From Parapedobacter defluvii (GTDB lineage: Bacteria > Bacteroidota > Bacteroidia > Sphingobacteriales > Sphingobacteriaceae): a stretch of 64,000 bases of DNA. The translations under genes were made by a program, and so were the position numbers. Shown piece by piece: positions 10,249 to 44,246 of the stretch (within the stretch, counting starts at the first letter, position 1; each line of letters begins with the position of its first letter). The stretch covers positions 62,001 through 126,000 of the forward strand of contig NZ_BMIK01000002.1 in assembly GCF_014642075.1 (NCBI RefSeq), read 5' to 3'. The notes below the pieces were generated by a model. The model was not told where the DNA came from. It ran no database searches and was given only the letters and a program-made list of their open reading frames with translations.

Positions 10249-11283
10249 CTAACTGCCAATTGACGCCTTTACTTGAGGAGCGATTTTGGTACCGTAAATT
10301 TCAATGGATTTCAGCATCATGGCGTGGGAGGGAGCTCCTACATCCATGTGCGCCGCAAAACGGGTAAGGCCGAACAGTTCGTGCATGTAGAGAATTTTAT
10401 CAACCATCGCATTGGGTTCGCCGATGAACAACGCCCCGTGCTTGGACTTGCCGAAATCGAACTGCGTACGCTGATAAGGAGGCCAGCCACGCGATTTGCC
10501 GACCCGATCCATCTGTGCGGCATACAAGGGATAGTAGGCCTTGCTCAGTTCTGCATCGTTGTCGCCAAATAGAGCATGGGAATGGATGCCGACCTGAAAC
10601 CGGGCAGGGTCATGGCCGTTTTCGAGGTAGGTTTTTTTATAGAGGTCAAAAAGCGGCTGGAATTGTGCGGGAGAACCGCCGATGATGGCAATCATCAAGG
10701 GCAGCCCAAGTTTTCCGGCGCGAACCACGGATGCTGCGGTTCCGCCCACGGCGATCCAGATGGAGAGGTTGTTGCCTACTGCACGCGGCAAGATTTGCTG
10801 GTCATTCAGCGGTGCCCTGAATTTGCCCTGCCAGGTGAGCCGTTCGTTTTTATTGATAGCTAAAAGTAAATCCAGCTTTTCGGAAAATAATGCATCATAG
10901 TCGTGCAGGTTGTACCCAAAAAGCGGAAACGATTCGATGAAGCTCCCCCTGCCGGCCATCAGTTCCGCGCGGCCGCCGGACAATTGATCGATCATTGCGA
11001 AATTCTGATAGAGTTTCACGGGATCGGATGAGCTTAACACGGAGACGGCACTTCCCAGCTTAATTTTTTTTGTTACGGTAGCGGCAGCCGCTAAAACAAT
11101 CTCGGGAGTGGGTACGGCATAGTCCGGCCGATGATGTTCGCCGATGCCAAAATAATCCAGCCCTACCTCGTCCATCAGTTTGATTTCCTCCATGATTTCG
11201 CGTAACCGCTGTCCAGCAGGCTGAAATTTTCCCGTTGCTTTATCTACCTGCAGATCTCCGAATATGCTAATGCCCAATTCCAT
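10249..11283 (-). CDS. LLM-class (luciferase-like) flavin-dependent oxidoreductase
   Basis: The protein has 344 residues from the ATG at 11281-11283. Family segments are MELGISIFGDLQVD, LDYFGIGEHHRPDYAVPTPE, IKLGSAVSVLSSSDPVKLYQ and QLSGGRAELMAGRGSF, the last characteristic of the alkanal-monooxygenase-like group. A C-terminal LTRFAAHMDVGAPSH is also typical. Such enzymes use reduced FMN and oxygen, or F420 in other lineages; FMN is the likelier cofactor in this phylum. It is convergent with the binding-protein gene with 13 bases between stops. The substrate is unknown. Confidence 0.9.
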   Translation of the reverse strand: MELGISIFGDLQVDKATGKFQPAGQRLREIMEEIKLMDEVGLDYFGIGEHHRPDYAVPTPEIVLAAAATVTKKIKLGSAVSVLSSSDPVKLYQNFAMIDQLSGGRAELMAGRGSFIESFPLFGYNLHDYDALFSEKLDLLLAINKNERLTWQGKFRAPLNDQQILPRAVGNNLSIWIAVGGTAASVVRAGKLGLPLMIAIIGGSPAQFQPLFDLYKKTYLENGHDPARFQVGIHSHALFGDNDAELSKAYYPLYAAQMDRVGKSRGWPPYQRTQFDFGKSKHGALFIGEPNAMVDKILYMHELFGLTRFAAHMDVGAPSHAMMLKSIEIYGTKIAPQVKASIGS

Positions 11284-11385
11284 TTTCTTCTCTTTATTGT
11301 TTAAACACAAATGTACGAATGATACTTGAATGTTCACATTGAAATAGGTTAAGAAAGCGCAAGGTGAGGGACAATTTTTTATTTT

Positions 11386-11393
11386 TACCTTTG
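11386..11393 (+). promoter_or_regulatory. -7 box upstream of the FAD oxidoreductase and dgo region
   Basis: TACCTTTG is a perfect TAnnTTTG match about 54 bases before the ATG at 11447. It is the best promoter candidate for the plus-strand run beginning there. A -33 TTTG at standard distance is not evident. Confidence 0.42.
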
Positions 11394-11446
11394 AGACGTT
11401 TGGAAAGCCAAACGGTGGCCCTTACGTATTAATCAATTACTTAATT

Positions 11447-13096
11447 ATGATTAGAGTTGTTTTATTCCTGTTGTTGTGTTGCCACTTGGCTTGTAGTACC
11501 TCCGATCCCAACACATACGAGGCAGACTTGATCATCTACGGAGGCACGTCTGCAGCGGTCACCGCCGCCGTACAAGCCAAGAAGTCGGGAAAATCCGTCA
11601 TTGTTGTCTCTCCGGATATTCACTTGGGAGGGCTGTCATCGGGTGGTTTGGGGTTTACCGATACAGGCGATAAGTCGGTCATCGGTGGACTGAGCCGTGA
11701 TTTCTATCACCGTGTTTACCTCCACTACGAAGACAGTTCCGCGTGGCGCTGGCAGAAACATTCGGAATACGGTAATAAGGGGCAGGGAACACCGGCCATG
11801 GATGGGGATGCCCGGACCATGTGGATTTTCGAACCCCATGTCGCTGAAAAAGTATTCGGAGATTATGTGAAGGAATTTGAACTGGATGTTCGGAAGGACG
11901 AATGGCTTGACCGTGAAAAAGGTGTTGCCAAAGAAGGAGACCGGATTGTGGCAATAACTACGCTCAGCGGTAAGACGTACCGGGGTAAGGTATTCATTGA
12001 TGCGACGTATGAAGGTGATCTGATGGCCGCAGCTGGGGTAAGCTATCATGTGGGGCGCGAGGCCAACAGCGTTTATGACGAGCAGTGGAACGGTGTGCAA
12101 ACGGGTGTATTGCACCATGGGCATTGGTTCAAAAGCGATATTAGCCCCTATAAAGTAGCAGGCGATAGCATGAGTGGTTTGCTATATGGCGTGTCTGCAG
12201 AAGATCCCGGCGTGTATGGAATGGGCGATCACCGCCTGCAGGCCTATTGCTTCCGCATGTGTCTGAGTAATCACCCCGAAAACCGGGTGGCATTTCCCAA
12301 ACCCGACAATTACAACCCGGAAAACTATGAACTACTGGCCCGTGTATTTGCCTCGGGTTGGCGGGAGACCTTCGAGAAATTCGATCCGATTCCAAACCGG
12401 AAAACAGATACCAATAGCCATGGGCCTTTCAGTACGGATTTCATCGGGATGAACTACGATTACCCGGAGGCAAGCTATGAACGGCGCCGGGAAATGATCC
12501 GGGAACATGAAGACTATCAAAAGGGATTGATGTACTTCCTGGCCAACGATCCGGGGGTACCGGAAGATGTACGGAACGAGATGGCCCAATGGGGCCTGGC
12601 GGCCGACGAGTTCACAGACAATGGGAACTGGCCGCATCAGCTATACATCCGGGAGGCCCGGCGGATGATTGGGCAATACGTGATGACAGAGCATGATACG
12701 TTCAGCGATCGGGAAATCGCGGACCCCGTAGGAATGGGATCCTATACACTGGATTCACACAATGTGCAGCGCTACGTGAAGCCGGATGGTTTCGTGCAGA
12801 ACGAAGGAGACATCGGCGTACATCCGAAGAAAGGTCCCTATCAGATTTCCTATGGGTCGTTGATTCCAAAAAAGGGAGAATGCGCGAACCTGTTGGTGCC
12901 GGTATGCGTGTCAAGTTCCCACATCGCTTTTGGTAGCATCCGGATGGAGCCGGTGTTTATGATACTGGGTCAAAGCGCGGCTTTGGCGGCTGTACTCGCC
13001 ATTGACCGGCATGTATCGGTACAGGATGTGCCCTACGCCGCATTGGAAGAGCAATTGCTCGCAGAAAAGCAAGTGCTTGCCAACCCGACTTTATAA
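11447..13096 (+). CDS. exported FAD-dependent oxidoreductase lipoprotein (PF12831)
   Basis: The protein has 549 residues. It opens with a lipoprotein-type signal (FLLLCCHLACS) and then a dinucleotide-binding strand ADLIIYGGTSAAVTAAVQA. The next segment, IHLGGLSSGGLGFTD, is typical of the FAD_oxidored family common in Planctomycetes and Bacteroidota. Later family segments include FIDATYEGDLMAAAGVSY and FGSIRMEPVFMILGQSAALAA, the C-terminal FAD contact. The likely role is oxidation of a sugar or sugar acid outside the cytoplasm, passing electrons to a cytochrome. It is the first gene of a run that includes a cytochrome c dehydrogenase and the galactonate pathway. The substrate is not known. Confidence 0.88.
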   Translation: MIRVVLFLLLCCHLACSTSDPNTYEADLIIYGGTSAAVTAAVQAKKSGKSVIVVSPDIHLGGLSSGGLGFTDTGDKSVIGGLSRDFYHRVYLHYEDSSAWRWQKHSEYGNKGQGTPAMDGDARTMWIFEPHVAEKVFGDYVKEFELDVRKDEWLDREKGVAKEGDRIVAITTLSGKTYRGKVFIDATYEGDLMAAAGVSYHVGREANSVYDEQWNGVQTGVLHHGHWFKSDISPYKVAGDSMSGLLYGVSAEDPGVYGMGDHRLQAYCFRMCLSNHPENRVAFPKPDNYNPENYELLARVFASGWRETFEKFDPIPNRKTDTNSHGPFSTDFIGMNYDYPEASYERRREMIREHEDYQKGLMYFLANDPGVPEDVRNEMAQWGLAADEFTDNGNWPHQLYIREARRMIGQYVMTEHDTFSDREIADPVGMGSYTLDSHNVQRYVKPDGFVQNEGDIGVHPKKGPYQISYGSLIPKKGECANLLVPVCVSSSHIAFGSIRMEPVFMILGQSAALAAVLAIDRHVSVQDVPYAALEEQLLAEKQVLANPTL

Positions 13097-13144: not shown

Positions 13145-15469
13145 ATGCAGATTTGTAACGTGAAAACAATTCATATAAACAGATACAAAACATCCGATCA
13201 TCTAAAACCCGTGTTTAACCGTTTCATTTTTTTCTGTAGCTTTTTCCTCATCGTGACCACCTTGGTGAGGTGCGGCAATACTGAAAAAGACGGAGTTCTC
13301 AGTCCCCAGGAATCCATAAAGGCGATGGAAGTGGAAGAGGGCTTTCAGGTAGCATTGGTCGCATCAGAACCCTTGGTAATCGCCCCGGTGGCAATGACTT
13401 TTGATAATGCAGGCCGCATATGGCTGGCGGAGATGGAGGGCTACATGCCCGACACGTTGGGAACAGGTGAAGATGCGCCGGTTGGCCGGATTGTCATCTT
13501 AACGGATCAGGATGGGGATGGGCAGATGGATGACCGGAAGATTTTTTTGGACTCCCTCGTGATGCCCCGTGCGCTTTGTCTTGTAGGGGGCGGGCTGCTG
13601 GTCGCTGAACCACCGAACTTGTGGTTTTATGAAATGAAAGGCGATACACCCACCAACCGGATACTGGTGGATAGCGCCTATGCGGAAGGTGGCAATGTGG
13701 AACATCAGCCGAACGGCCTTTTGCGGGGGCTGGACAACTGGATTTACAGTGCTAAATACGATTGGCGGTATAGAAGGCGTCCCGATGGCAAATGGCTCAA
13801 GGAGAAAACCCATTTTCGTGGACAGTGGGGAATCAGTCACGACGATTGGGGCAGACTGTATTACAACGACAACTCCAGTAACCTTTCAGGCGATTATTTC
13901 CCGCCGGGTCTCGGTGCCGGTAACCCAAACCAGCGTAGGGTGGCCGGATACGGTGAAACCATTGTAGCCGATAAACGAGTCTATCCCATACATCCCACAC
14001 CGGGAGTCAACCGTGGTTACATGGAGGGGATATTGGACAGCACGGGGCGATTGGTAAATTTCACGGCGGCATGCGGGCCTCTCCTATACCGGGGCGGACT
14101 AATCGACGGTATGAATGCTTTCGTTGCGGAGCCTTCGGCTAACCTGATCAAGCGCAACGTGTTGGATACAGAAGGCTTTCGCGTAACCGGGAAGCAAGCG
14201 TACCAGGGCAAAGAATTTCTGGCAAGTGATGACGAACGGTTTAGACCGGTGAACTTGTATGACGGGCCCGATGGCTCCCTGTATATGCTGGATATGTACC
14301 GGGGTATCATCCAGCACAATACCTACTTAACCCCTTATCTGAAAAATGAAATTGCCAAACGTAATTTGACGTTGCCGTTAAGTATGGGCCGGATTTACCG
14401 GATATTTCCAACCGATGTCAAACGTACGGCGGTTGCCATCCCCCGGAATACAGATTCACTGATTTTGCTATTGGGGCATCCCAATGGATGGGTACGTGAT
14501 CAGGCACAGCGTACGCTGATCGACCAACGTGCCAATGACGGGGCTGATAAGCTGCGTGATTTGCTGCGAAAAGACAGCGAACCGTTACGTATGATCCATG
14601 CATTGTGGACATTGGAAGGATTGGGGCAGCTGACGTCGGACGATATTCTTATTGCGATGAACCACCCCCGGTGGGAGGTACGTGCCCAAGCATTGGCGGC
14701 GTTATCCTCGTTGAAAAACACATTGTCGGCGGATCAATTGGTGGACTTTCTAAAAATTACTGTTTCTCAGGGCGATACGTTACTCGCTCCGTATGCGATG
14801 CTGACCATGGCAGCATTGAGTGCTGAGGGGATTTCCGAAGTAACGCCTTTGTACGAACAATGGGCGAAGACCTATGCAAACGACCGGTATGTAACGGATG
14901 CTTTTATAAGTGGTATCGGCGGGCACGAGAAAAGTTTTTTGCATGAGTTGGAACGCGGAAAATCCGATACATCCACGGCGCTGTATCGCCATCTTGCTTC
15001 GGTGGTAGACGCGATTGACGAAAAAAGTAAGGGCGAAGACCAGGCGCTGTTAGCCAAGCGATATCCAAAGGGAGCCATACTCTTTCAAACGGCATGCCAG
15101 CCCTGTCACGGAGAAGACGGAAGGGGGGTATCACCCATTGCGCCGCCCTTGGCGGGTTCGGAATGGGTCAAAGGAAAAAAAGAACGGCTGATGGCGTTGG
15201 TATTATACGGACTGACCGGTCCCGTTGAAGTTGCTGGTCATACCTATGAAACTCCCGAGGTGAGTGGTGAAATGCCTGGAATCGTGCACAACCCCGCAAT
15301 TGAAGATGCGGAATTGGCTGAACTGTTAAGTTATATCCGCAACGCATGGGGCAACAATGTGGACGATCAGATCCTGCCGGAAGATTTGGGAGCGATCCGA
15401 TCCCGGTTTGGTGACCGTGCAGAGCCGTTTGTACAGAGCGAATTGCACGAATTATTTGGTAAAGATTAA
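13145..15469 (+). CDS. TIGR02604-type dehydrogenase with C-terminal cytochrome c
   Basis: The protein has about 774 residues. It has an N-terminal hydrophobic export segment (FIFFCSFFLIVTTLVRC) with a possible lipid Cys. A GSDH/TIGR02604-like beta-propeller follows, with FDNAGRIWLAEMEGY and the calcium-like loop DQDGDGQMDD, then HEAT-like helices from about residue 430. At the end is a single cytochrome c domain with heme motif CQPCH (Cys at residue 651) and a candidate axial Met in GEMPG. It could oxidise an aldose or alcohol and pass electrons to the heme. A shorter start (GTG at 13211) is possible. It lies 14 bases before dgoA, suggesting joint expression with galactonate breakdown. Confidence 0.85.
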   Translation: MQICNVKTIHINRYKTSDHLKPVFNRFIFFCSFFLIVTTLVRCGNTEKDGVLSPQESIKAMEVEEGFQVALVASEPLVIAPVAMTFDNAGRIWLAEMEGYMPDTLGTGEDAPVGRIVILTDQDGDGQMDDRKIFLDSLVMPRALCLVGGGLLVAEPPNLWFYEMKGDTPTNRILVDSAYAEGGNVEHQPNGLLRGLDNWIYSAKYDWRYRRRPDGKWLKEKTHFRGQWGISHDDWGRLYYNDNSSNLSGDYFPPGLGAGNPNQRRVAGYGETIVADKRVYPIHPTPGVNRGYMEGILDSTGRLVNFTAACGPLLYRGGLIDGMNAFVAEPSANLIKRNVLDTEGFRVTGKQAYQGKEFLASDDERFRPVNLYDGPDGSLYMLDMYRGIIQHNTYLTPYLKNEIAKRNLTLPLSMGRIYRIFPTDVKRTAVAIPRNTDSLILLLGHPNGWVRDQAQRTLIDQRANDGADKLRDLLRKDSEPLRMIHALWTLEGLGQLTSDDILIAMNHPRWEVRAQALAALSSLKNTLSADQLVDFLKITVSQGDTLLAPYAMLTMAALSAEGISEVTPLYEQWAKTYANDRYVTDAFISGIGGHEKSFLHELERGKSDTSTALYRHLASVVDAIDEKSKGEDQALLAKRYPKGAILFQTACQPCHGEDGRGVSPIAPPLAGSEWVKGKKERLMALVLYGLTGPVEVAGHTYETPEVSGEMPGIVHNPAIEDAELAELLSYIRNAWGNNVDDQILPEDLGAIRSRFGDRAEPFVQSELHELFGKD

Positions 15470-15483
15470 TTACTTTTACCCGT

Positions 15484-16110
15484 ATGTCTACATTAACCAA
15501 AATTACGGAGAACAGGGTCATTGCAATTGTTAGAGGGCTACCACCCGCCCATGTATTGGACGTAGCCCATGCATTGTATGCCGGGGGAATCCGTGTGCTG
15601 GAAATTACGATGAATTCCGACGATCCTCTGACAGCCATTCGTAAAGTGGCCGAAACCTTTGGCGACCGAATGGTAGTGGGAGCAGGAACTGTACTCGATG
15701 CGAAGATGGCAGAAGCTGCAATAGCTGCGGGAGCAACATTTGTACTTTCACCGATTGTTGACCGCGATGTGATTAGGACCACGAAAGACCTTGGGATGGT
15801 AAGCATCCCGGGTGCCTATACGCCTACGGAGATATATACGGCTTTCAAATGGGGAGCAGATCTCATCAAGGTATTTCCTGCCACGTCGCCCGGCTATATC
15901 CGGGAGCTCGCGGGACCCCTGCCGCAAATACCTTTGCTGCCTACCGGTGGTATCACACCTCAGAATATTAACGATTATAAAAAAGCGGGTGCCGTGGGAT
16001 TTGGAGTCGGCAGCGCCTTGGTCAACACGAAACAACCCGTTACAGCCCGATCCCTGGAAATAATTACCGATAAGGCACGCCAGTTTGTTGCTGCACTTGC
16101 AGATGAATAA
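15484..16110 (+). CDS. dgoA: KDPG/KDPGal aldolase
   Basis: The protein has 208 residues, the normal length of class I 2-keto-3-deoxy-6-phosphosugar aldolases. Glu40 (RVLEITMNS) is the general acid/base position and Lys129 (ADLIKVFPA) forms the Schiff base. The phosphate-binding loops VGAGTVLD and [10 protein letters not shown] are intact. The reaction splits 2-keto-3-deoxy-6-phosphogalactonate into pyruvate and glyceraldehyde 3-phosphate. Sequence alone does not separate the gluconate (eda) from the galactonate (dgoA) enzyme. I prefer dgoA because dehydratase and kinase of the galactonate route follow directly, 26 and 3 bases apart. Confidence 0.88.
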
Positions 16111-16136: not shown

Positions 16137-17285
16137 ATGAAGATTACGTCCTATGAATTATTTTTGGTGCCCCCGCGGTGGCTGTTCCTGAAAATTGAAA
16201 CAGACGATGGCCTCGTGGGCTGGGGCGAGCCGGTAATTGAGGGAAAGGCAGCTACAGTGAAGGCTGCTGTCGATGAATTGATGACTTACCTCATCGGGAA
16301 AGATCCGTTACCCATTGAAGATCATTGGAATGTATTATACAGGGCCGGCTTTTACCGGGGTGGCCCCATTTTGATGAGCGCAATCGCCGGTATCGATCAG
16401 GCATTGTGGGATATCAAAGGCAAATACTACGGAGCCCCGATCCACCAGTTACTGGGAGGAAAGGCAAGGGATAAGATGAAAGTATATTCGTGGATCGGAG
16501 GCGACAGACCGGCCGATGTGGGTATGGCAGCCAAAAAAATGGCTGACAGCGGCTTTTTGGCGGTTAAAATGAATGCGACCGAGGAGTTGCAATACGTAGA
16601 TAGCTATGCCAAGATCGACGAGGCAGTAAGCCGTATTGCGGCCATACGTGATGCCGTTGGGCGAGATTTCGGGGTAGGGATCGATTTCCATGGACGGGTG
16701 CATAAGCCCATGGCAAAAATACTGGCAAAAGAGCTGGAACCTTACCGGCCCATGTTTATTGAAGAGCCGGTCTTGCCCGAGAACAATGAAGATCTGAGAG
16801 AAATTGCCAATCATGTATCCATTCCCATTGCGACCGGTGAGCGGATGTTTTCGAAATGGCAATTTAAAACGTTATTGGCCGAAGGTTATGCGGATATCAT
16901 CCAGCCTGACCTTTCGCATGCAGGTGGAATTACGGAATGCAAGAAAATCATTTCCATGGCAGAAGCCTTTGATGTGGCGGCTGCTCCGCATTGTCCGCTA
17001 GGCCCCATTGCCTTGGCGGCCTGTCTGCAGGTAGACGCCACGTGTCACAACGCGTTTATCCAGGAGCAGAGTTTAGGCATTCATTACAACCGGGGGAGTG
17101 ACCTCCTGGATTATTTAGAAGACAAATCGGTATTCCAGTATAAGGAGGGGTATGTGAATATCCCGGAAGGTCCGGGATTGGGCGTCGTCATTGACGAAGC
17201 ACACGTCCGGAAAATGGCGGCCGTAGGCCATCAGTGGCAGAATCCCGTTTGGCGCCATCGGGATGGCAGTGTGGCGGAATGGTAA
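16137..17285 (+). CDS. dgoD: D-galactonate dehydratase
   Basis: The protein has 382 residues, the same as E. coli DgoD. It begins [20 protein letters not shown] and carries the enolase-superfamily metal ligands in GIDFHGR (Asp), FIEEPV (Glu) and TGERMF (Glu). The second catalytic His is in [16 protein letters not shown]. The enzyme removes water from D-galactonate to give 2-keto-3-deoxygalactonate in the cytoplasm. It sits between the aldolase and kinase of the same pathway, which makes this assignment stronger than for an isolated enolase-superfamily gene. Confidence 0.95.
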
Positions 17286-18242: not shown

Positions 18243-18324
18243 TTGGATTTTTTTACTATTGTAAGAATTTCCAGTTATACCGAAGTTATATTGAATGTCT
18301 CGTGCGCATACCAAGCTTATCCCG

Positions 18325-21300
18325 ATGAATAAGAAACTACCTTTCAGCCTGCTATTGGGCGTATTTTTGCTTTTCTACTCTTGCAGGCAGCAAGACATCG
18401 TTGCCCCGCTGCGTCCGGAACCCAACAGTCATATTGTCGTTGTAGGCAATTCATTCGGCGTAGGGCTTCAAGAGCACAACTATTTTGAGACGTTATTGCA
18501 TATGAGTTTCCCGGAACAACACCTCCGGATGCGGAATTTGGCGTGGAGTGCCGACGAGGTGAATCTCCGCCCCAGGCCTCTGAATTTCGGAACGTTGGAT
18601 GAGCATCTGCAACAGCAGGAAGCCGATATTATTTTCGTATGTTTCGGGCTCAACGAAGCGTTCAAGGGGCTGGACAGCCTGGAGGGTTTCAAGCGCGACC
18701 TTCAGAATTTCCTTACCCATTTGCAGCAACAACAATACAACGGCGAAAAAGCGCCGCAAATCATTCTCGTGTCACCGATCGCCCATGAGAAACTGGGAGG
18801 TTTATTGCCGGATCCAACCGCGCACAACAAAAGCCTGAAAGCGTATACACGGGGCATGCGGGAAGTGGCCCATGAATTGGGGATTTCATTTATCGATCTG
18901 TATGAGCCCACCAGGAAGCTGATGAACCGTGCCGATGAACCGTTAACAACCAACGGAATCTATCTCAATGACCGCGGATACCGCGAGGTAAGTGAAATGA
19001 TGGCATCCGCCTTGGACTTTCCTGTAGCCAGCTGGGAGCGTACGCCTCACTCGGAGCAATTAAAGGAAGTGGTGAAAAAGAAAAACCAGCATTTTTTTTA
19101 TCGGTATAAAGCACAAAATGGCGAATATATCTATGGCAGACGGAAAGACTGGGCAGGCGGAGAAGCACTTCCTGCCGAATTGCAGGAAATTGACCGTATT
19201 GTGGTGCGGTTAGACAGCCTTGTCTGGGCGGGTAGTAATCCGCAGGGAACGGTCGATTTAGAAAAAGCAATCGCTATCACCAGCTTCAGGCAACGATCTG
19301 AAGAACATAAACACGTCCCGACCGACCCGAAAGACCTTGAAAAGGCTCAATCGCAATTTATACTGCAGGATGGTTATGAAATCAATCTGTTTGCCTCCGA
19401 ATTGGATTTTCCGATCGCCAATCCGGTATCGTTGACATTCGACCCGCAGGGAAGACTATGGGTGGCTACGATGCCCGCCTATCCGCACTACTTCCCCGGT
19501 AATCCGCCGGATGATCGCATCGTGGTGTTGGAAGATACCGACCACGACGGAAAGGCGGATAAACATACGGTATTTGCTGACAGCCTGTATCTTCCGTTGG
19601 GATTTGAGCTGGGCGATGGGGGGGTATATGTAACCCAGGCACCGGATATGATTTTTTTGCGGGATACCGATGGTGATGGCCGGGCAGACGACCGGAAGAC
19701 GCTTCTCAGTGGATTCGGAACGGAGGATTCGCATCATACACTCAATACGTACACGTGGGGTCCCGATGGAGCGCTGTATATGCATATGGGTACTTTTTTG
19801 CATTCCCAGATTGAAACGCCTTATGGGCCGAGGCGGGGAGCCTATGGCAATACTTGGCGGTTTGAGCCGCGGACGATGAAGCTGGATGAATACATTTCGT
19901 ATCCCTATGCCAACCCTTGGGGAAGTGTATTCACGCGGGATGGTACGCATCTGATTGCGGACGTATCTACGGGTATGAACTATTTCGCCCCGCCACTTAC
20001 GGTAGCCATCGACTACCCAAAAAAACACATGGGCATGAAGGATTTCCTGACTTCTTCGGCCAAACCTAAAACCTGCGGGATGGCTGTCGTATCCAGCCGG
20101 GCTTTCCCCGAAAATGCGCAGGGAAATGTACTTTTTAACACATTTATCGGATTCCAGGGAATTCGCCAGCATACGGTAACAGAGGAGGGAAGTGGCATCG
20201 TAGGGCATGAAATTGAACCACTTCTGCAGTCTACTGATCCGAATTTCCGTCCGGTGGGCCTTAAATTCGGTCCCGATGGTGCGCTTTATGTACTCGATTG
20301 GTACGATCCGATTATTCAGCACGGCGAGCAGAATTTCAGGGATTCGCTACGGGACCATTCCCGCGGGCGGATCTGGAGGATAACGTATAAGGGCAAAGAT
20401 GTGCTGCCTGTGACTGACCTTAGCCGATTAACTGTCAGCGAATTACTCGAACAACTGAAGGTCTATGAAGACGGAGTGCGTTACCGTACCCGCATGCAGC
20501 TCCGGGAATTTACGGCTGATGAGGTCTTACCCGCTGTTGAAAAGTGGCTGGCCGGATTGGATGAGAATGACCCGGAAATCGACCAGCACCGCTTGGAGGG
20601 GCTTTGGGTGTACCAACAGTTTAACCATCCCAATAAGGAACTATTGGATAACCTATTGAAAAGCGAGACGCCATCAGTCCAGGCTGCGGCTGTCCGTGTA
20701 CTGCTTTATTGGGCGGATGCCCTAACAGATGCCCAGGAGCGGCTCATTGTCCTGTCAAAGGATCCTTCACCACGGGTAAGGCTGGAAGCGGTGGCGGCGC
20801 TGAGCCACTTTGCATCCGAAGAGACCATACACGCCTTGCTGGCTGTTACCGATCAGCCTGTGGATGATTACATTGGATATGCGTTGATCGAATCTTTCAA
20901 GCACCTCAAGCCGGTTTGGATGGAGATGTTTAAAAAGAATAAAGACTTTCTGGCCAACGAACCCAAAAAGGCCGACGCATTGCTCCGGCCCTTGGCCTCA
21001 GCAGCCGAATTACAGGTGCCTGGTTTCATTATGGACGATCCTGACTATGCTCAATATGGAGTGGCTCCGTTATCCGCTGCGGATTTCGAAGCGTTGTCGG
21101 GTGTAGCCGCAGTCGAGCAGTTCCGTGAACGGCACCGGGAGCTGTTGAATCCGCAAACCGAGAAACGGGAAACTTCCCCCGATCTGCAGCCAAAGGACCT
21201 AGGAGAGATTGTCGTTCACCTATCGGCATTGCCCGGGAAAATGGCCTTTGATAAAGAAATTCTCACGGTAGTAGCGGGAAAATCAGTTTCGTTGATTTTC

Positions 21301-21582
21301 GAAAACCGCGACCAGATGGCACATAATATCGTCGTTGTAAAGCCCGGAAGCGAGGAGAAGGTCGGAACGGCCGCCGATGGTATGGCGGGTCTTCCGGATG
21401 GCTACGAAAAGCATTTCATCCCTCAGATGCCGGAAGTATTGTTTTCAACTCCGCTAGTCAACGCCGACGAAACATTTCAATTGAATTTTACCGCTCCGGC
21501 TAAGCCAGGAGATTATCCGTTTATCTGTACATTTCCGGGGCATTGGCGGGTGATGAAGGGAGTGATTAGGGTAACGGAGTAA
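18325..21582 (+). CDS. SGNH hydrolase - TIGR02604 dehydrogenase - cupredoxin fusion
   Basis: The protein has 1085 residues from the ATG at 18325, which gives a lipoprotein signal (LLLGVFLLFYSC). Residues to about 240 form an SGNH/GDSL-hydrolase-like domain with a first block VVVGNSFG (Asn in place of Asp), a third block FGLNEA, and a late Asp in YLNDRGYREV. The middle is a TIGR02604 dehydrogenase propeller (GRLWVATMPAYPHY, DTDHDGKADK) and HEAT-like repeats. The final 130 residues are a plastocyanin/azurin-like domain with type-1 copper ligands in MAHN, FICTFPGHW and the following RVMKG. No CxxCH heme motif is present, so copper replaces the usual cytochrome. It follows dgoK after about 80 bases. 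Confidence 0.85.
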   Translation: MNKKLPFSLLLGVFLLFYSCRQQDIVAPLRPEPNSHIVVVGNSFGVGLQEHNYFETLLHMSFPEQHLRMRNLAWSADEVNLRPRPLNFGTLDEHLQQQEADIIFVCFGLNEAFKGLDSLEGFKRDLQNFLTHLQQQQYNGEKAPQIILVSPIAHEKLGGLLPDPTAHNKSLKAYTRGMREVAHELGISFIDLYEPTRKLMNRADEPLTTNGIYLNDRGYREVSEMMASALDFPVASWERTPHSEQLKEVVKKKNQHFFYRYKAQNGEYIYGRRKDWAGGEALPAELQEIDRIVVRLDSLVWAGSNPQGTVDLEKAIAITSFRQRSEEHKHVPTDPKDLEKAQSQFILQDGYEINLFASELDFPIANPVSLTFDPQGRLWVATMPAYPHYFPGNPPDDRIVVLEDTDHDGKADKHTVFADSLYLPLGFELGDGGVYVTQAPDMIFLRDTDGDGRADDRKTLLSGFGTEDSHHTLNTYTWGPDGALYMHMGTFLHSQIETPYGPRRGAYGNTWRFEPRTMKLDEYISYPYANPWGSVFTRDGTHLIADVSTGMNYFAPPLTVAIDYPKKHMGMKDFLTSSAKPKTCGMAVVSSRAFPENAQGNVLFNTFIGFQGIRQHTVTEEGSGIVGHEIEPLLQSTDPNFRPVGLKFGPDGALYVLDWYDPIIQHGEQNFRDSLRDHSRGRIWRITYKGKDVLPVTDLSRLTVSELLEQLKVYEDGVRYRTRMQLREFTADEVLPAVEKWLAGLDENDPEIDQHRLEGLWVYQQFNHPNKELLDNLLKSETPSVQAAAVRVLLYWADALTDAQERLIVLSKDPSPRVRLEAVAALSHFASEETIHALLAVTDQPVDDYIGYALIESFKHLKPVWMEMFKKNKDFLANEPKKADALLRPLASAAELQVPGFIMDDPDYAQYGVAPLSAADFEALSGVAAVEQFRERHRELLNPQTEKRETSPDLQPKDLGEIVVHLSALPGKMAFDKEILTVVAGKSVSLIFENRDQMAHNIVVVKPGSEEKVGTAADGMAGLPDGYEKHFIPQMPEVLFSTPLVNADETFQLNFTAPAKPGDYPFICTFPGHWRVMKGVIRVTE

Positions 21583-21737: not shown

Positions 21738-24086
21738 ATGAGGCATTTTCTTTCGTCAAAGTGGCTAATAGGCACGGCAATCGTCCTACTTATCGCGGCG
21801 TTGTCCGGATTTTTTTTCTCAGGACGGGGAGTCAGCGGTTTGGGCGGATCGATGCCGTTACCTGCGGTGGTTGATTACAATTTCCATATCCGGCCGGTCT
21901 TATCCGACAAATGTTTTGCCTGCCACGGGCCAGACAAGAATGCGCGTGAGGCAGATCTCAGATTGGATACCGAGGAAGGTGCTTATAAAGCATTGAAGGA
22001 AACCGCGGGCATGCATGCGATTGTTCCGGGCCATCCGGATCAAAGCGAGGCCTATCGCCGTATTACCAGTAACGACGAAACGATACGGATGCCGCCGGTG
22101 TCGTCAAACCTGACCTTGTCGGATTATGAAGTCCGGCTTATTGAACGATGGATCCGGCAGGGTGCGGAATATAAACCCCACTGGGCGTTCGTCCCACCCG
22201 AAAAGACGGAAATTCCAGAGGTCGATGACGACGAATGGCCGGTCAATGAGATCGATCACTTTGCATTGGCGAAGATGGAGATGATGGGATTTAAGCCTAA
22301 TCCAGAGGCCGATAAAGCCCATTTATTACGCCGATTGAGTTTGGATCTTACCGGATTACCTCCCACAGAGAAGCAATTGGAGCATTTTCTTGCCGATGAT
22401 TCGCGCGAGGCGTATGAACGTGTGGTGGATGAATTGATTGCCTCTAAGGCCTATGGTGAACGTATGGCTATGCATTGGCTGGATGTAGCCCGTTATGCGG
22501 ATTCTTACGGCTATCAGGATGATGATATACGCACACAATGGCCGTGGCGTGATTGGGTAATTCATGCTTTCAACCAAAACATGCCTTATGACCGGTTTGT
22601 AACCTGGCAGCTGGCAGGAGACATGTTACCGAATGCAACCAAAGAACAGTTGTTGGCTTCTGCATTTAACCGGAACCATAAGATCACGGAAGAAGGTGGT
22701 GTCATTGAAGAAGAGTACCGGGTAGCCTATGCAATAGATAAAACCAACACTTTCAGTAAAGGTATTTTGGGTATCACGATGGAGTGTGCTCAGTGCCACG
22801 ATCACAAGTACGATCCTTTCACGCAAAAAAATTATTTCCAGTTATACGCTTTTTTCAATAATTCCGCCGAAAAGGGACTGGAAGGGCTCGTCAACTCCGG
22901 CCCTTCTAAGACACCTCGATTAACCATCACGCAAGCGGATGTGGATAGCGTACTCCAGTTTATCAACAAAGCCGGTGACACGTCGGCGGTATCTGTATCG
23001 GTAATGGGCGAACTGGACGAGGTACGTCCTACCTACGTGCTTGACAGGGGTGTATACGATGCGCCTACCGAGCGGGTATACCCCGGTACGCCGGAGTCCA
23101 TTTTGACGTTTGACAGCACGCAGTATGCATCCAACCGGCTCGGGTTAGCCAACTGGGCATTCAGCAAAGAAAATCCGTTGACGGCAAGGGTGTTTGTCAA
23201 TCAGTTGTGGACAATGGTGTTTGGACGGGGGCTGGTAGCTACCGTGGCAGATTTCGGCAACCAGGGCGAACTGCCCAGTCACCCCGAATTACTGGATTGG
23301 CTGGCAGCTGATTTCCGAGATCAGGGCTGGGATGTGAAACGGTTAATGAAGCAACTGGTGATGAGTGCTACCTATCGGCAATCGTCCGTCGTGACGAAAA
23401 AACACTTGGCGGAAGATCCGGAAAATATCTACCTGGCACGGGCTAAACGGTTGCGCCTGCCGGCAGAATTTATACGGGATTTGGCATTGGCCAGCAGCGG
23501 ACTGCTTAATCCGGAAATCGGTGGTCCCAGCATAAAGCCTTATCAACCGGATGGAATATGGGAAGTAACCAGTTCGGGAAGAGGCGCGCTGTCCAATTAT
23601 GTGCAAGATCATGAAAATGCACTTTATAGGCGGGGCATGTATGTGTTTATCAAATTGACGGTGCCACCTCCCAATATGCTGATTTTTGATGCCAGCAACC
23701 GGGATATGTGCGAGGTAACCCGCCAACGTACCAACACCCCATTGCAGGCACTGGTGATGCTGAACGATCCCGTGATTTTGGAGGCATCGCGTGTGTTTTC
23801 CGGAAAATTGCTGCAGGAAGCACCGCAGGCGAAGCCCCGTGACCTGATCAACCACGCATTCCGGCGTATTTTAAGCCGGGACGCCAGTGAAAAGGAACTA
23901 AGTTCGTTGGAGTCCTATTATTCAGATGAACTGAAACGCTATCGTGAATCGCCAGCGGATGCAGAGGCGTTTGTAGCGGTGGGCGAAGCACCTCACGAGA
24001 AGACGGTGAATGTGGTTGAACAGGCGGCTTTGATGGCAGTCATTCACGGATTGTACAATTTAGAAGAAACGATTACACGGACATAA
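21738..24086 (+). CDS. PSD1/DUF1549-DUF1553 planctomycete-type cytochrome protein
   Basis: The protein has 782 residues. An N-terminal membrane anchor (WLIGTAIVLLIAALSGFFF) is followed by a planctomycete cytochrome C domain with CFACHGPDKN (first Cys at residue 59). Then come DUF1549, with DLTGLPPT, DVARYADSYGYQDDD and MECAQCHDHKYDPF (a second CxxCH), and DUF1553, with TARVFVNQLW and NTPLQALVMLND. These proteins are abundant in Planctomycetes beside sulfatases and DUF1501 proteins. Their chemistry is unproven. It is followed 42 bases later by a DUF1501 gene, the usual partner. Confidence 0.92.
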   Translation: MRHFLSSKWLIGTAIVLLIAALSGFFFSGRGVSGLGGSMPLPAVVDYNFHIRPVLSDKCFACHGPDKNAREADLRLDTEEGAYKALKETAGMHAIVPGHPDQSEAYRRITSNDETIRMPPVSSNLTLSDYEVRLIERWIRQGAEYKPHWAFVPPEKTEIPEVDDDEWPVNEIDHFALAKMEMMGFKPNPEADKAHLLRRLSLDLTGLPPTEKQLEHFLADDSREAYERVVDELIASKAYGERMAMHWLDVARYADSYGYQDDDIRTQWPWRDWVIHAFNQNMPYDRFVTWQLAGDMLPNATKEQLLASAFNRNHKITEEGGVIEEEYRVAYAIDKTNTFSKGILGITMECAQCHDHKYDPFTQKNYFQLYAFFNNSAEKGLEGLVNSGPSKTPRLTITQADVDSVLQFINKAGDTSAVSVSVMGELDEVRPTYVLDRGVYDAPTERVYPGTPESILTFDSTQYASNRLGLANWAFSKENPLTARVFVNQLWTMVFGRGLVATVADFGNQGELPSHPELLDWLAADFRDQGWDVKRLMKQLVMSATYRQSSVVTKKHLAEDPENIYLARAKRLRLPAEFIRDLALASSGLLNPEIGGPSIKPYQPDGIWEVTSSGRGALSNYVQDHENALYRRGMYVFIKLTVPPPNMLIFDASNRDMCEVTRQRTNTPLQALVMLNDPVILEASRVFSGKLLQEAPQAKPRDLINHAFRRILSRDASEKELSSLESYYSDELKRYRESPADAEAFVAVGEAPHEKTVNVVEQAALMAVIHGLYNLEETITRT

Positions 24087-24128
24087 CGGCAAGCTGATAG
24101 CCGACCGCAAACAGGAGAAATAAGTGGT

Positions 24129-25601
24129 ATGAAGAAAGACGGAATGTTAGAAAAAGAAGTTGAACAAGCCCGTTTATACGAAAACCGGAGGCAGTTCTTG
24201 TCGCGATTGAGTATCGGAATCGGTAGCGCCGCGTTGGGCTCATTGCTGATACCGGATTTATTTTCAGGTAAAGGAGGGGATAGCGATGGTCCCGCACCGG
24301 GAATTCCCCATTTTGCACCAAAGGCCAAACGGGTTATTTATCTTTTCCAGAGCGGAGGCGTGTCCCAATTGGAATCGTTTGACGGGAAACCTAAATTGCG
24401 TGAGATGATGGGACAGGATCTTCCTGAATCGGTGCGCGGCGGGCAACGGCTTACGGGGATGACAGCCGGTCAGGCAAGTTTCCCGCTGGTGGGATCTTAC
24501 TATGATTTTGCCCAGTATGGAAAAAGCGGTGCCTGGGTCAGCTCGGCGTTTCCGCACATGGCAAAAATCGTTGACGACCTTTGCATCATCCGATCGCTTC
24601 ATACCGATGCCATCAATCACGATCCGGCGATTACCTTTTTCCAAACGGGTGCCCAACAGGGGAACCGCCCGAGTATGGGTGCATGGCTGAGTTACGGGTT
24701 GGGTAGTGAAAATCAGAATCTTCCGGCTTTCTGTGTGTTGGTATCGAAAGGAAGGGGGAATGGACAGGGTGTTTATGCAAAACTGTGGACCAACGGGTTC
24801 CTGGATTCCGTGCACCAGGGGGTGCAACTTATGGGCGGACCAGATCCGGTGCTGTACCTGGGCAATCCGCCGGGAACGGATAAAGTGAGCCGCAGAAAGT
24901 TGTTCGATAAATTGGCCGAACTGAATCTTCTCCAGTTTGAGGCATTCGGGGATCCTGAAATTACGGCAAAGGTGCAGCAATACGAGATGGCTTACCGGAT
25001 GCAAACCTCTGTCCCTGAGGTTACGGACCTATCAAAAGAACCGGACCATATTGTTAAACTGTATGGTCCCGATTGCCTCGTTCCGGGTACCTATGCGGCG
25101 AACTGCTTGTTGGCAAGAAAATTATCTGAAAACGGTGTGCGTTTTGTGCAGCTCTATCATCAGGGATGGGATCAGCACGGCAATCTGCCCAACGAGATGG
25201 CCACACAGGCAAAAGATGTAGACCAGGCGTCGGCTGCTTTGGTAACTGATTTGAAACAACGCGGCTTACTGGACGAAACATTGGTCATATGGGGCGGCGA
25301 GTTCGGCCGGACCAGTTACTGCCAGGGAAGACTGGAGTTTAACAACTACGGAAGAGATCACCACCCCCGTTGCTTCAGCGTATGGATGGCTGGCGGCGGT
25401 ATAAAGCCTGGAATTGTATACGGCGAAACAGACGAGTTTAGTTACAACATTGTTAAAGATCCGGTGCATGTGCATGATTTTCATGCTACCATTCTTCATC
25501 AGCTCGGATTGAATCATGAGAAATTGACGTACCGGCACCTGGGGCGGCGTTATCGCCTTACCGACGTTGCCGGAACGGTGGTAAAAGACATCTTGGTGTA
25601 G
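24129..25601 (+). CDS. DUF1501 protein with Tat-type signal
   Basis: The protein has 490 residues. Near the N-terminus NRRQFLSRLSIGIGSAALG resembles a twin-arginine export signal, implying a folded, possibly metal-containing product. The mature part has the alkaline-phosphatase-fold DUF1501 pattern, with VIYLFQSGGVSQLESFDGK, TDAINHDPAITFFQTG, WDQHGNL and VIWGGEFGRTSYCQG. It also contains RDHHPRCFSVWMAGGG. Conserved His and Asp residues in these blocks suggest metal ligands. It always travels with DUF1549/DUF1553 proteins, as here. Function remains unknown. Confidence 0.93.
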   Translation: MKKDGMLEKEVEQARLYENRRQFLSRLSIGIGSAALGSLLIPDLFSGKGGDSDGPAPGIPHFAPKAKRVIYLFQSGGVSQLESFDGKPKLREMMGQDLPESVRGGQRLTGMTAGQASFPLVGSYYDFAQYGKSGAWVSSAFPHMAKIVDDLCIIRSLHTDAINHDPAITFFQTGAQQGNRPSMGAWLSYGLGSENQNLPAFCVLVSKGRGNGQGVYAKLWTNGFLDSVHQGVQLMGGPDPVLYLGNPPGTDKVSRRKLFDKLAELNLLQFEAFGDPEITAKVQQYEMAYRMQTSVPEVTDLSKEPDHIVKLYGPDCLVPGTYAANCLLARKLSENGVRFVQLYHQGWDQHGNLPNEMATQAKDVDQASAALVTDLKQRGLLDETLVIWGGEFGRTSYCQGRLEFNNYGRDHHPRCFSVWMAGGGIKPGIVYGETDEFSYNIVKDPVHVHDFHATILHQLGLNHEKLTYRHLGRRYRLTDVAGTVVKDILV

Positions 25602-25610
25602 CGCTTACCC

Positions 25611-27770
25611 ATGAAATCAATCCATACCGCCCTGCTTAACCTGCTGATTGCATTTCAGGTATTCATTGTTTTTTTCCTCCTTTTTGAGAGCAGGATTTAC
25701 GTGCCGGCATCGCTGCAGGTGCTGGGTCGGGCTCATCCTTTGTTGCTGCACTTCCCGATTGTGTTGTTGGTGCTTGCCTGGCTGCTCGGGTGTTTTGGAG
25801 AAAAGCTGGATATGGGGCAGGCGTTGGTCAAGCAGTTGGTATATACACTACTGCTGTTGACCGCCTGGAGTGCCGCGCTAACCGTCGTGGCAGGTTTATT
25901 CCTTTCCAAGGAAGGAGGGTATGAAGGCCCTGCTTTCCAATGGCATAAATGGACGGGGGTAGCACTGTGTTTTTTATCCGCCGGATTGCTGTGGTATCAC
26001 GAGCGGACAGCTGTTAAACGAACGAAATATCCCAATCTTTTCCGGATCGGATTGAGTGTTTTGTTGGTCGTATTAATGATGGCCGGTCATTTCGGTGCCG
26101 GGTTGACGCGCGGTGCAGATTACCTGTTTGAACCGGTACGCGGGAAAAAACAGAAAGCTTTGGATATCGAAATGGCGGTTGTGTTTCCCGATCTGGTCTA
26201 TCCGATCCTGGAAGCAAAATGCCTGAATTGTCACAGTCCGAATAAGGCAAAAGGAGGCTTGATACTCTCAGATACGACGTTGATGCGCCAAGGGGGAGAT
26301 AGTGGCCCGTTATGGGTAAGCAGCTCCACGGAAGAAAGCCTTCTTATTCAGCGCCTACTGCTGGATATCGGTCATGAGCATCATATGCCACCCAAGGGCA
26401 AACCGCAGTTGACCGATGAAGAGTTGGCATTGGTTCAAGCGTGGGTTGCATCCGGTGCAGATTTTGAGGTTCCCTTGTCATCCGTTCCTCCCGATGATCC
26501 GATTCATCGGTTGGCTGTAGCCGTTTATGGTGCTCCAAATACAGAAGCTTACGATTTTCCGGCTGCAGATGCCGGAACGGTAGCCGGATTGAACAGTCCG
26601 TATCGGGTTGTTAAACCGATCGCGTTGGGGATGCCTGCTTTGACCGTAGGCTTCTATGGAAAAACCGCTTTCACCGAGCAATCGCTGAGCGAATTAACGG
26701 CAGTTGGTCTACAGGTCGTATCTATGTCGCTGAGCGGAATGCCGTTATCCGAAAAGGATCGGCAAACACTCGGAAATTTCACCAACCTACAAGAATTGAT
26801 ATTGAATGACACCCCGGTGGATGACCGGTGGTGTGAGACACTGGCGGCACTCCCAAAATTGCGTACGATCAGCCTGAGTGGTACGAAAGTAACAGAAACC
26901 GGGCTCGCGACCCTGTTGGCCCTGCCAAAGCTGAAGCAGGTATACGTATGGAATACCCAGGTCGGCACGGATGTGCTGGAGCGGCTGCAGCAGGAGCATA
27001 AAAATGTGACCATCGAACAAGGATACCGGGATGATGGCCAGACGATCCTTCCGTTAAACGCTCCCCTGATTAAGCCGGCTAGCAGTTTTTTTGAGGAGAG
27101 GGCTACAGTCACGTTAAGCCATCCGGTAGCTGGTGTTGAATTGCGTTACACGCTGGATGGAAGTGAACCCGATAGTACCCATGCACGTCTTTACAAGGAG
27201 CCTTTTACCATCGATGCCGCAACCGTTGTGCGGGTAAAAGGCTATAAATCTGGCTGGTTTTCCAGTGCGGAGACGTTAAAAGCCTTTCACCCCTCGGCAA
27301 ACCGTCCCGACCGTCTATTCCTGCTGGGTCCACCCAATCCAGGCTACAAAGGACGGGGTGCTGTGACCTTAGTCGATTTGGTAAGCGGGGGAGACAATCA
27401 CGCGGATGGCAAATGGTTGGGATTCTATGGTGAGCCGATGAATGTATCGTTCCATTTCGACGAGGCGATTCACATAGATACCATCGGTATCAGCGTAAAG
27501 CAGCAGTATGGTAACTATATTTATCCGCCAAAGGTCATTCAGGTATGGGGTGGTGCCGACTCCATCGGTGCACGCTTGCTTACCCGGGTTCAGCCGATAC
27601 TGGAAAAGCCAGAAAAAGCACCGGCAAGTCAACTAGTCAGCATACCTGCGGTCGGCGACGCAATCCGGTACCTGCGGTTAGTGGTTGAGCCGTTTGTTCC
27701 CATACCCCCGGGATATCCTGCTGAGGGAAACCCTGCCTGGATTTTTGTCGATGAAATCACCATAAACTGA
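25611..27770 (+). CDS. mosaic membrane cytochrome c with LRR-like and beta-sandwich domains
   Basis: The protein has 719 residues. About four membrane spans occupy residues 10-165, with the segment HPLLLHFPIVLLVLAWLLG resembling DUF2231. A planctomycete-type cytochrome c follows with CLNCHSPNKAKGG (first Cys at residue 204) and PKGKPQLTDEELALVQAW. Next comes a short leucine-rich stretch (LQELILNDTPVDDRW, LRTISLSGTKVTETG), then a chitobiase-type/Fn3-associated segment (ELRYTLDGSEPDSTHA). The end looks like a carbohydrate-binding beta-sandwich. It begins nine bases after the DUF1501 gene. I infer an electron-accepting membrane partner of the upstream proteins. Confidence 0.82.
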   Translation: MKSIHTALLNLLIAFQVFIVFFLLFESRIYVPASLQVLGRAHPLLLHFPIVLLVLAWLLGCFGEKLDMGQALVKQLVYTLLLLTAWSAALTVVAGLFLSKEGGYEGPAFQWHKWTGVALCFLSAGLLWYHERTAVKRTKYPNLFRIGLSVLLVVLMMAGHFGAGLTRGADYLFEPVRGKKQKALDIEMAVVFPDLVYPILEAKCLNCHSPNKAKGGLILSDTTLMRQGGDSGPLWVSSSTEESLLIQRLLLDIGHEHHMPPKGKPQLTDEELALVQAWVASGADFEVPLSSVPPDDPIHRLAVAVYGAPNTEAYDFPAADAGTVAGLNSPYRVVKPIALGMPALTVGFYGKTAFTEQSLSELTAVGLQVVSMSLSGMPLSEKDRQTLGNFTNLQELILNDTPVDDRWCETLAALPKLRTISLSGTKVTETGLATLLALPKLKQVYVWNTQVGTDVLERLQQEHKNVTIEQGYRDDGQTILPLNAPLIKPASSFFEERATVTLSHPVAGVELRYTLDGSEPDSTHARLYKEPFTIDAATVVRVKGYKSGWFSSAETLKAFHPSANRPDRLFLLGPPNPGYKGRGAVTLVDLVSGGDNHADGKWLGFYGEPMNVSFHFDEAIHIDTIGISVKQQYGNYIYPPKVIQVWGGADSIGARLLTRVQPILEKPEKAPASQLVSIPAVGDAIRYLRLVVEPFVPIPPGYPAEGNPAWIFVDEITIN

Positions 27771-44200: not shown

Positions 44201-44246
44201 AGGGCAATTGGTCGATCTAATCGAATACCTTGCTTCATTGAAATGA
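41217..44246 (+). CDS. TIGR02604 dehydrogenase with HEAT repeats and TIGR02603 cytochrome c
   Basis: The protein has 1009 residues with a probable lipoprotein signal (ALLVAAGCHTDHA). A dehydrogenase propeller follows, with VDDRGRVWVNEAYNYRP, EDADHDGVLDQRT and PDGSLIIADWYDPGVGGHQ, then HEAT-like repeats from about residue 440 to 830. The C-terminal TIGR02603 heme domain has CATCHQ (first Cys at residue 889) and GPKLSQIGAK, ending in LVDLIEYLASLK. It likely oxidises a sugar derivative and reduces the attached heme. It stands alone after a 252-base gap behind glycerate kinase; that gap shows no gene. Confidence 0.88.
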   Translation: MQAFKRKGRGLLPPAMALLVAAGCHTDHAARFEQLTEDEKRLPENATLGLDIRDGLEVGLMASEPMLLNPTNIDVDDRGRVWVNEAYNYRPTLNGNPTTDKGDRILILEDADHDGVLDQRTVFYQGPEINAPLGICVLGNRVIVSQSPYVWDFYDDNGDGKADRKEILFQGIGGEQHDHGVHAFVFGPDGKLYFNFGNECHTLLDRDGNIVTDQDGDGITNKKYRQGMVFRCDIDGSNVEVLGHNFRNNYELAVDSYGTIWQSDNDDDGNRAVRINYVMEYGNYGYSDELTGAGWRENRTNLEDSIPLQHWHLNDPGVVPNLLQTGAGSPTGMLVYEGDMLPKEFRNQIVHSDAGPNIIRSYPVERDGAGYRASILNLLKGRDQWFRPSDVCVAPDGSLIIADWYDPGVGGHQAGDQTRGRIYRIARSVSKYRIPSPDYSSVEGAIHALQSPNLSVRYNAWVSLSDQGSKAVPQLEKLFHSNGNDRMRARALWLLTKIDKGDTYLLEGLQDSNPDIRITAIRAAQQTRKNIIPYIAPLSKDKNVQVRRACAIALRHVKDPQAAELWATLASQHDGKDRWYLEALGIGAEGQWDSFFTAFLEINRDAVKTDAGRDIIWRARTETAVPLLAQLAGDSSVGLKSRLRYFRAFDFIPGEVKAQALLAMIRPGDSGDDLQLNSIILRALDTKVVMESKSASDVLHTLLDAVYGKPEYIDLVTQYELKSEVPRLLELVVSRASSSIGHRAAGLLFQLQAEKQVKEALKQQPDSIITAIGPVGMERSVDMLENLMLSRSSNDEIRRLSAAVLGKSMAGEDRVLSLLKTHAIPEELIPVAVEGLKNTWRKAIYAEARSYLPGTENNPDAAAEVLTEAELMASKGNIEKGKTVFQANCATCHQVNGQGQDFGPKLSQIGAKLPKTALLDAIVNPSAGISFGYETSVITTKNGATLMGIVSSRTELEVTIRFMGGVSQSFKMAEIASVKETKESMMPPLQHTMSKGQLVDLIEYLASLK

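Follow-up and report, generated by a model that had tools for sequence, protein, structure and literature searches.

What does a protein do that carries an esterase-like domain, a sugar-dehydrogenase-like propeller and a blue-copper domain on one chain? The question is raised by a gene at 18325-21582 (+ strand) of the window, a stretch of 64,000 nucleotides from Parapedobacter defluvii (contig NZ_BMIK01000002.1, positions 62,001 to 126,000). An earlier note on this DNA proposed that a hydrolase, a dehydrogenase and a copper carrier act together in the encoded lipoprotein. Our preferred explanation, with a probability of about 0.5, is a protein with a lipid anchor that resembles sugar dehydrogenases, is wired through copper and carries a degenerate esterase domain. 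It would be a lipid-anchored oxidoreductase of the little-characterised TIGR02604/DUF7133 family, located in the periplasm or at the outer membrane. The propeller, which has the fold of pyrroloquinoline quinone (PQQ)-type sugar dehydrogenases, would most likely oxidise a carbohydrate or a close derivative. The exchange of carriers among relatives suggests an electron path that would lead, within the chain, from the propeller to the auracyanin-like blue-copper domain, and from there to the respiratory chain. The SGNH domain has a degenerate esterase fold. Because the Asp-His pair of its catalytic site is Asn-Tyr, it would more likely bind or position the substrate, or be a relic, than hydrolyse a lactone.

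Domain composition and exchange of the electron carrier

The open frame on the + strand has in-frame ATG codons at 18295 and 18325 and ends at 21582. The second ATG gives a protein of 1085 residues and is a better fit to most ortholog starts, and the Pfam residue numbers refer to this form. Four Pfam domains were found, and all four exceed the cut-offs: Lipase_GDSL_2 (50-220, 2e-12; 48 bits versus a cut-off of 32.9), DUF7133 (339-689, 3.6e-75; 254 bits versus 27), HEAT_2 (772-857, 2.6e-12) and Copper-bind (966-1083, 2.9e-11). The NCBIfam model TIGR02604 scored 250 bits against a cut-off of 122. These searches recovered all four modules named in the earlier note and bore out the order given there, which was SGNH-like, TIGR02604, HEAT and plastocyanin-like. 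The parts of the chain are as follows (models by AlphaFold2, AF2).

18325-18384, + strand: leader with a lipobox-like Cys (C20, ending in LLFYSC)
18409-19023, + strand: SGNH/GDSL-hydrolase-fold domain with altered catalytic site, residues 29-233 (Lipase_GDSL_2; AF2 model, Foldseek)
19024-19338, + strand: linker/tail of the SGNH domain, residues 234-338, with the lowest conservation (50% to the ortholog L046)
19339-20391, + strand: TIGR02604/DUF7133 beta-propeller, residues 339-689 (Pfam, NCBIfam; AF2 domain model)
20398-21174, + strand: HEAT-repeat helical region, residues about 692-950 (HEAT_2 at 772-857; model helices 704-941)
21202-21573, + strand: auracyanin/azurin-like cupredoxin, residues 960-1083 (Copper-bind; auracyanin A match)
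21322-21324, + strand: His1000, copper ligand 1, in MAHNIVV, aligned to the HN of auracyanin A
21526-21555, + strand: Cys1068, His1073 and Met1077, copper ligands 2-4, in CTFPGHWRVM, by the auracyanin A alignment

The window protein is composed of a lipoprotein-type leader, an SGNH/GDSL domain, a TIGR02604/DUF7133 propeller, a HEAT region and an auracyanin-like cupredoxin. All 8 orthologs, counting the window protein, have a Cys aligned at leader position C20. The residues before it in the window are F-Y-S, which we take to be a poor lipobox.

The best solved relative by sequence in the whole-protein search was auracyanin A, matched at the C-terminus (5e-18), which was also the best PDB sequence match when the cupredoxin domain was searched alone (2.6e-19). 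The Cys, His and Met ligands that had been placed in FICTFPGHW and RVMKG are present, and the His of MAHNIVV completes the set of four. The His, Cys, His, Met set is intact in all 19 aligned cupredoxin domains of the family, which are the domains of more than 90 residues from the loci that this alignment covered. The window cupredoxin has, by alignment, a complete type 1 copper-ligand set and a predicted copper site. All four ligands are common to auracyanin A/B and azurin; those proteins are free carriers, whereas the window cupredoxin is a domain within a large enzyme-like chain.

The TIGR02604/DUF7133 (PF23500) 'PVC-type heme-binding CxxCH' proteins share the propeller and the HEAT region with the window protein. 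They carry a cytochrome, whereas the CxxCH heme motif, which is part of the TIGR02604 family title, was found nowhere in the window protein chain and a cupredoxin stands in the place of the cytochrome. The earlier note had described such a replacement at the usual C-terminal position of cytochrome c, and it is now seen as a swap between orthologs. In genome G006, the best match to the window protein is L064, whose identity to it is 69% for the propeller, 56% for the SGNH domain and 49% for the HEAT region. At its C-terminus L064 carries Cytochrom_C, and its chain showed no cupredoxin. A tree with 39 rows was based on the SGNH-propeller part, save for three outgroup rows with the propeller alone; in it L064 nests among the cupredoxin orthologs with support of 100/97 and 100/99. 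The carrier label needs 4 changes on this tree, at least 3 of them being forced by well-supported branches, and shuffled labels average 10.4. The tree program flagged long branches (those of L127 and of the three outgroups, and those joining the two deep groups), and the placement of the swapped L064 is independent of them.

Since cupredoxin and cytochrome c share electron transfer, their recurring exchange argues that the remaining chain would deliver electrons. The exchange in relatives is good indirect evidence of electron transfer as the role of these domains. The window protein and L046 on one side and L064 on the other have the same core with different carriers, and thus offer a natural experiment on the redox activity of the core.

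Other carrier arrangements were also observed. In the own genome, the DUF7133 paralog L056 (C24, 5900-8692) begins with a stretch that resembles a cupredoxin and contains His, Cys, His and Met; its Pfam score is 20.0 bits, slightly below the cut-off of 21.2. The same layout of a cupredoxin-like N-terminus with DUF7133 was seen in L089-L093. Two further paralogs of the own genome, L053 and L054, combine ThuA, DUF7133 and a C-terminal cupredoxin, the ThuA match being partial in L054.

Fold and putative active site of the propeller

With a profile built from 32 propellers, the soluble glucose dehydrogenase (sGDH) of Acinetobacter was the best solved relative (2.9e-10). The AF2 model of the propeller alone, made from an alignment of 11 sequences, reached a mean predicted local distance difference test score (pLDDT) of 72.6 and a predicted template modelling score (pTM) of 0.80; for structure prediction, alignments A1 and A3 were each limited to 11 sequences, fewer than the full set. 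When this model was compared by VIA, AA12 pyranose dehydrogenases and PQQ sugar dehydrogenases took ranks 1-15 (Z 23.5-26.3), and Cj1041c, Diels-Alderases, lactonases, DFPase, NHL and HHIP propellers followed at Z 22.5 and below. The model comparison suggests a sugar dehydrogenase ancestry of the propeller, which is favoured by a small margin. The fold is common to sGDH and the AA12 enzymes of Trichoderma reesei and Coprinopsis cinerea (Z 23.8-26.3, with identity of 17% or less in these rows), and a fungal AA12 enzyme likewise carries an electron carrier on its own chain. Unlike these enzymes, the window protein has a cupredoxin carrier and extra SGNH and HEAT modules, and several PQQ-site residues are absent.

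Two positions of the sGDH active site, His144 and Asn229, have equivalents in the window propeller.

19735-19737, + strand: His471, which takes the place of Acinetobacter sGDH His144 in the alignment (28 of the 32 propellers have His here)

We take His144 to be the catalytic base of sGDH. Asn530 is aligned to Asn229 (Asn in 31 of 32 propellers) and Arg642 to Arg406 (Arg in 23 of 32), in an alignment of low identity. The propeller is also the best-conserved domain, with 86% identity to L046 and 84% to L062, versus 50-77% elsewhere in the chain. Homologs of a PQQ-type dehydrogenase were found at four places in the own genome. In the window, a third DUF7133-cytochrome protein (41217-44246) scored 26.6 bits with GSDH (PF07995, glucose/sorbosone dehydrogenase) against a cut-off of 25, which ties DUF7133 by sequence to the GSDH family.

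Several observations weigh against a copper-wired sugar dehydrogenase. The VIA lead of the sugar dehydrogenases over other propellers is only 1 to 4 Z, and in Foldseek, which was led by fungal pyranose dehydrogenase and sGDH, streptogramin lyase and luciferin-regenerating enzyme were close behind. By alignment, the sGDH cofactor site is only partly kept. Its PQQ/calcium-site residues are, as we assume, Arg228, Asn229, Gly247-Pro248, Lys377, Arg406 and Arg408; Arg228 is replaced by Ala529, Arg408 by Val644 and Gly247 by Ser548 in the window protein, and Lys377 is without an equivalent in the printed profile alignment. The cut-off of the pqqE model was reached in 0 of 11 genomes, a count without a positive control, and weaker matches were present in 8 of the 11 genomes and in 14 of 14 control genomes, the controls also being all below the cut-off. 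The full-length AF2 model is of moderate quality (pLDDT 66.8, pTM 0.52), so the arrangement of the domains in space is unreliable.

The literature adds one more point against oxidation. The sole activity report found for the wider family concerns purified Lac161_ORF7 of Verrucomicrobia (TIGR02604, HEAT_2, cytochrome c), for which passages of the paper describe lactose hydrolysis with a Km of 1.8 mM, not oxidation (PMC5342196). Judged by the description in that paper, the TIGR02604 and HEAT_2 core is common to both proteins; Lac161_ORF7 has a cytochrome c end and the window protein a cupredoxin end. DUF7133 proteins are abundant, one reported activity was found for them, and lactose hydrolysis fits badly with attached electron carriers. 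As background on periplasmic sugar oxidation, lactose use via 3-keto intermediates by LacABC with DUF1080 proteins has been described, and TIGR02604 or DUF7133 is not mentioned in the passages on lactose use of that paper (PMC9007349). The literature search found no paper on a cupredoxin form of TIGR02604/DUF7133 proteins, which does not exclude that one exists.

Catalytic site of the SGNH domain

In the full-length model, block pLDDT for residues 31-260 was mostly 66-92, but 45-51 at residues 71-90 (block II). The Foldseek matches of the domain included acetylxylan esterase Axe2, GDSL lipases, Bacteroides acylhydrolases and sialate O-acetyl esterases. The positions that bear on catalysis are listed below.

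18451-18453, + strand: Ser43, block I nucleophile (GNS), flanked by the window-only changes A45G and E46V (8-ortholog alignment)
18652-18654, + strand: Asn110, block III oxyanion residue (GLNE), kept (alignment)
18952-18963, + strand: block V NGIY, with Asn210 for Asp and Tyr213 (TAT) for the catalytic His (profile search, ortholog alignment)

In the profile search, the DxxH of solved GDSL-fold proteins was matched to block V, which reads NGIH in 7 of 7 aligned orthologs and NGIY in the window. SGNH/GDSL esterases such as Axe2 and the Bacteroides acylhydrolases share the fold and the Ser and Asn positions with the window domain; they have Asp-His in block V, whereas the window domain has Asn-Tyr. 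The earlier note relied on a working hydrolase and pointed to the catalytic Ser and His as the residues to look at. Ser43 is retained but the His is lost to Tyr213, and with Asn-Tyr in place of Asp-His the working hydrolase was not borne out in this copy.

The loss has several degrees in the fused family. Among 36 SGNH-DUF7133 fusions, the Ser and His positions read Ser+His in 7, Thr+His in 5, Ala+His in 1, Asn+Gln in 22 and Ser+Tyr in 1, which is the window protein; L047 (no open reading frame (ORF) of at least 120 residues by the filter) and L048 and L050 (whose recovered frames lack an SGNH domain) are absent from these counts. Thr stands at the Ser position in 5 of the 7 orthologs, and L046 and L062 retain Ser and His. 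These alignments show graded loss of the triad across the fused family, with an independent loss of His in the window copy. Since only 7 of the 36 fusions retain both residues, a working lactonase is unlikely in the window copy. A working SGNH lactonase was rejected for this copy on the changes to Tyr213 and Asn210 and on those beside Ser.

The codon of Tyr213 (TAT, 18961-18963) is one base from the His codon CAT, and a sequencing error was considered; A45G and E46V beside Ser speak for a real relaxation of the site. Eight SGNH changes are found in the window copy only, and A45G, E46V and H213Y among them fall in catalytic blocks. Unique changes number 6 in L046 and 16 in L064. The window, L046 and L064 domains are each 61% identical to that of L052, which, together with the 16 unique changes in L064, counts against a general decay of the domain.

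The two halves of the fusion also occur separately: in L057 (own genome, C15, 7388-12162), L071 and L072, a gene for an SGNH protein of about 410 residues lies next to one for a DUF7133-cytochrome protein. The stand-alone SGNH protein of such a pair retains Ser and His.

The graded loss of the triad provides a test of whether such domains act as esterases or as binding modules. A wider and rather doubtful proposal is that Bacteroidota sugar dehydrogenases may consist of a core with interchangeable carriers at either end, in which the esterase was repeatedly turned into a non-catalytic substrate handler. If this is true, an ancestral esterase became a substrate-handling domain several times and to different degrees.

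Gene neighbourhood, rival functions and distribution

The earlier note had the SGNH domain open a lactone to give the acid used by the dgo genes just upstream. The genes around the SGNH-copper gene are these.

13145-15469, + strand: second DUF7133 protein, with cytochrome c at its end (Pfam); DUF7133 companion of dgo in relatives
15484-16110, + strand: dgoA-type gene, KDPG-aldolase family
16137-17285, + strand: dgoD-type gene, galactonate dehydratase PRK14017, 695 bits
17289-18242, + strand: dgoK-type gene, DGOK
21738-27770, + strand: PSCyt1/PSCyt2/PSD1 protein, DUF1501 protein and DUF2231/PSCyt1/LRR protein (Pfam)

The dgo genes do lie directly upstream on the same strand. The end of dgoK is 52 bases from the first possible start of the SGNH-copper gene, so co-transcription with dgo is plausible in this strain. 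The claimed link is nevertheless weak, since it was not found in relatives or orthologs. The dgo stretches of four relatives were compared (L081-L084; G003, G004, G005 and G006), in which the galactonate dehydratase is 89-95% identical. The constant partner of dgoA/dgoD in all four is a DUF7133-cytochrome protein of the 13145-15469 type, and no SGNH-copper gene was found beside dgo in these stretches (the G006 contig stops after dgoK). No galactonate dehydratase was found near the orthologs of the window protein, and one over the cut-off lies near 1 of 36 fused genes, which is the window itself; both results refer to flanks of limited length. A dehydratase near L134 was rejected as dgo evidence (219 bits with the galactonate dehydratase model, below the cut-off of 311). 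The dgo linkage was rejected as a general rule, being seen in the window genome only. A galactonate-feeding role is possible in this strain but was not seen as conserved. By its conserved company, the 13145-15469 protein makes a stronger candidate than the SGNH-copper protein for an enzyme linked to galactose or galactonate.

In 3 of the 4 relatives, dgo is also accompanied by a homolog of the PF12831 flavin adenine dinucleotide (FAD) oxidoreductase encoded at 11447-13096 in the window. In L084 (genome G004, Parapedobacter pyrenivorans), the slot between dgoD and a PSCyt gene, which dgoK and the SGNH-copper gene fill in the window, contains a PQQ dehydrogenase (PF01011) that also has cytochrome c (10468-12594); the same three downstream genes come after dgo there. 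The PQQ dehydrogenase is nearest to the glucose/quinate/shikimate family, with 468 of 833 bits, below the model cut-off.

The neighbours of the orthologs are an alpha/beta-hydrolase gene, a ThuA gene or SusC/SusD-like genes, the last read by eye. ThuA-type genes are found in the vicinity of 20 of the 36 fused genes, and several fused genes have a TIM-barrel isomerase-like gene nearby, in a count without a background control; flank lengths differ in this count, some loci are short and L062 is counted twice. A Pfam check of five ThuA assignments put 4 over the cut-off and gave no match for L126; L051 and L062 were also over it. No ThuA-like gene was found within the window itself.

Four other explanations were weighed. 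The propeller could be a glycoside-cleaving enzyme as claimed for Lac161_ORF7, with the copper or heme domain serving a separate or regulatory redox step. The report on that protein speaks for it, and the ThuA-type and sugar-isomerase-like neighbours suggest sugars; but a steady link to exchangeable electron carriers would be useless in simple hydrolysis, the nearest folds are dehydrogenases and the activity comes from one report on one protein, the literature search having found no other. This explanation is unlikely. The degenerate SGNH site and the partly kept PQQ-site residues would fit a binding or electron-shuttle lipoprotein in which both SGNH and propeller are non-catalytic. The propeller, however, is the best-conserved domain, and the His and Asn at the sGDH catalytic positions are largely conserved, which makes a wholly non-catalytic protein improbable.

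The other two explanations keep the SGNH domain active. A slow esterase might use Ser43 with another base, for instance on acetyl groups, so that the protein de-esterifies and then oxidises its substrate. In its favour are the retained Ser43 and Asn110, an overall rate of change in the domain that is not raised, and structural neighbours that include acetylxylan and sialate O-acetyl esterases; but the three catalytic-block changes, His to Tyr included, make up 3 of the 8 window-only ones, and we consider this quite unlikely, if just short of improbable. The bifunctional enzyme implied by the earlier note would have the propeller turn an aldose into an aldonolactone, the cupredoxin take the electrons and the SGNH domain open the lactone to an aldonate for dgo. 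It draws on the position of dgoA/D/K, on the PQQ dehydrogenase-cytochrome gene after dgoD in L084, as if an aldose oxidase belonged there, and on the retained Ser43 and Asn110 along with the Ser and His of L046 and L062. Since it needs the residues lost at 213 and 210 in the window copy, meets Thr for Ser in five of seven orthologs, and no SGNH-copper gene was found beside dgo in the L081-L084 stretches and no galactonate dehydratase in the available flanks of the orthologs, it is very unlikely. The copper-wired, sugar-dehydrogenase-like protein with a degenerate esterase domain is preferred over these four.

The architecture of SGNH, propeller and carrier is uncommon, yet not private to the Parapedobacter defluvii genome. 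In the whole-protein search of 60 relatives (own genome included), 26 had some match, and G004, G014 and G006 were listed with near full-length orthologs of at least 57% identity. A match to the SGNH-linker part was found in 36 of 296 Bacteroidota genomes (own included), and in 30 of these it lies in an open frame of at least 900 residues. From 20 regions, drawn from 18 of these 30 genomes, 19 fused proteins were recovered, 4 with cupredoxin and 15 with cytochrome c; the region left uncounted is L133 (G231), whose matching frame of 1082 residues was dropped by the ORF filter. ORFs were taken from the longest start, and some N-termini are too long. In the own genome, DUF7133 matched 14 stretches, which we read as 12 open frames.

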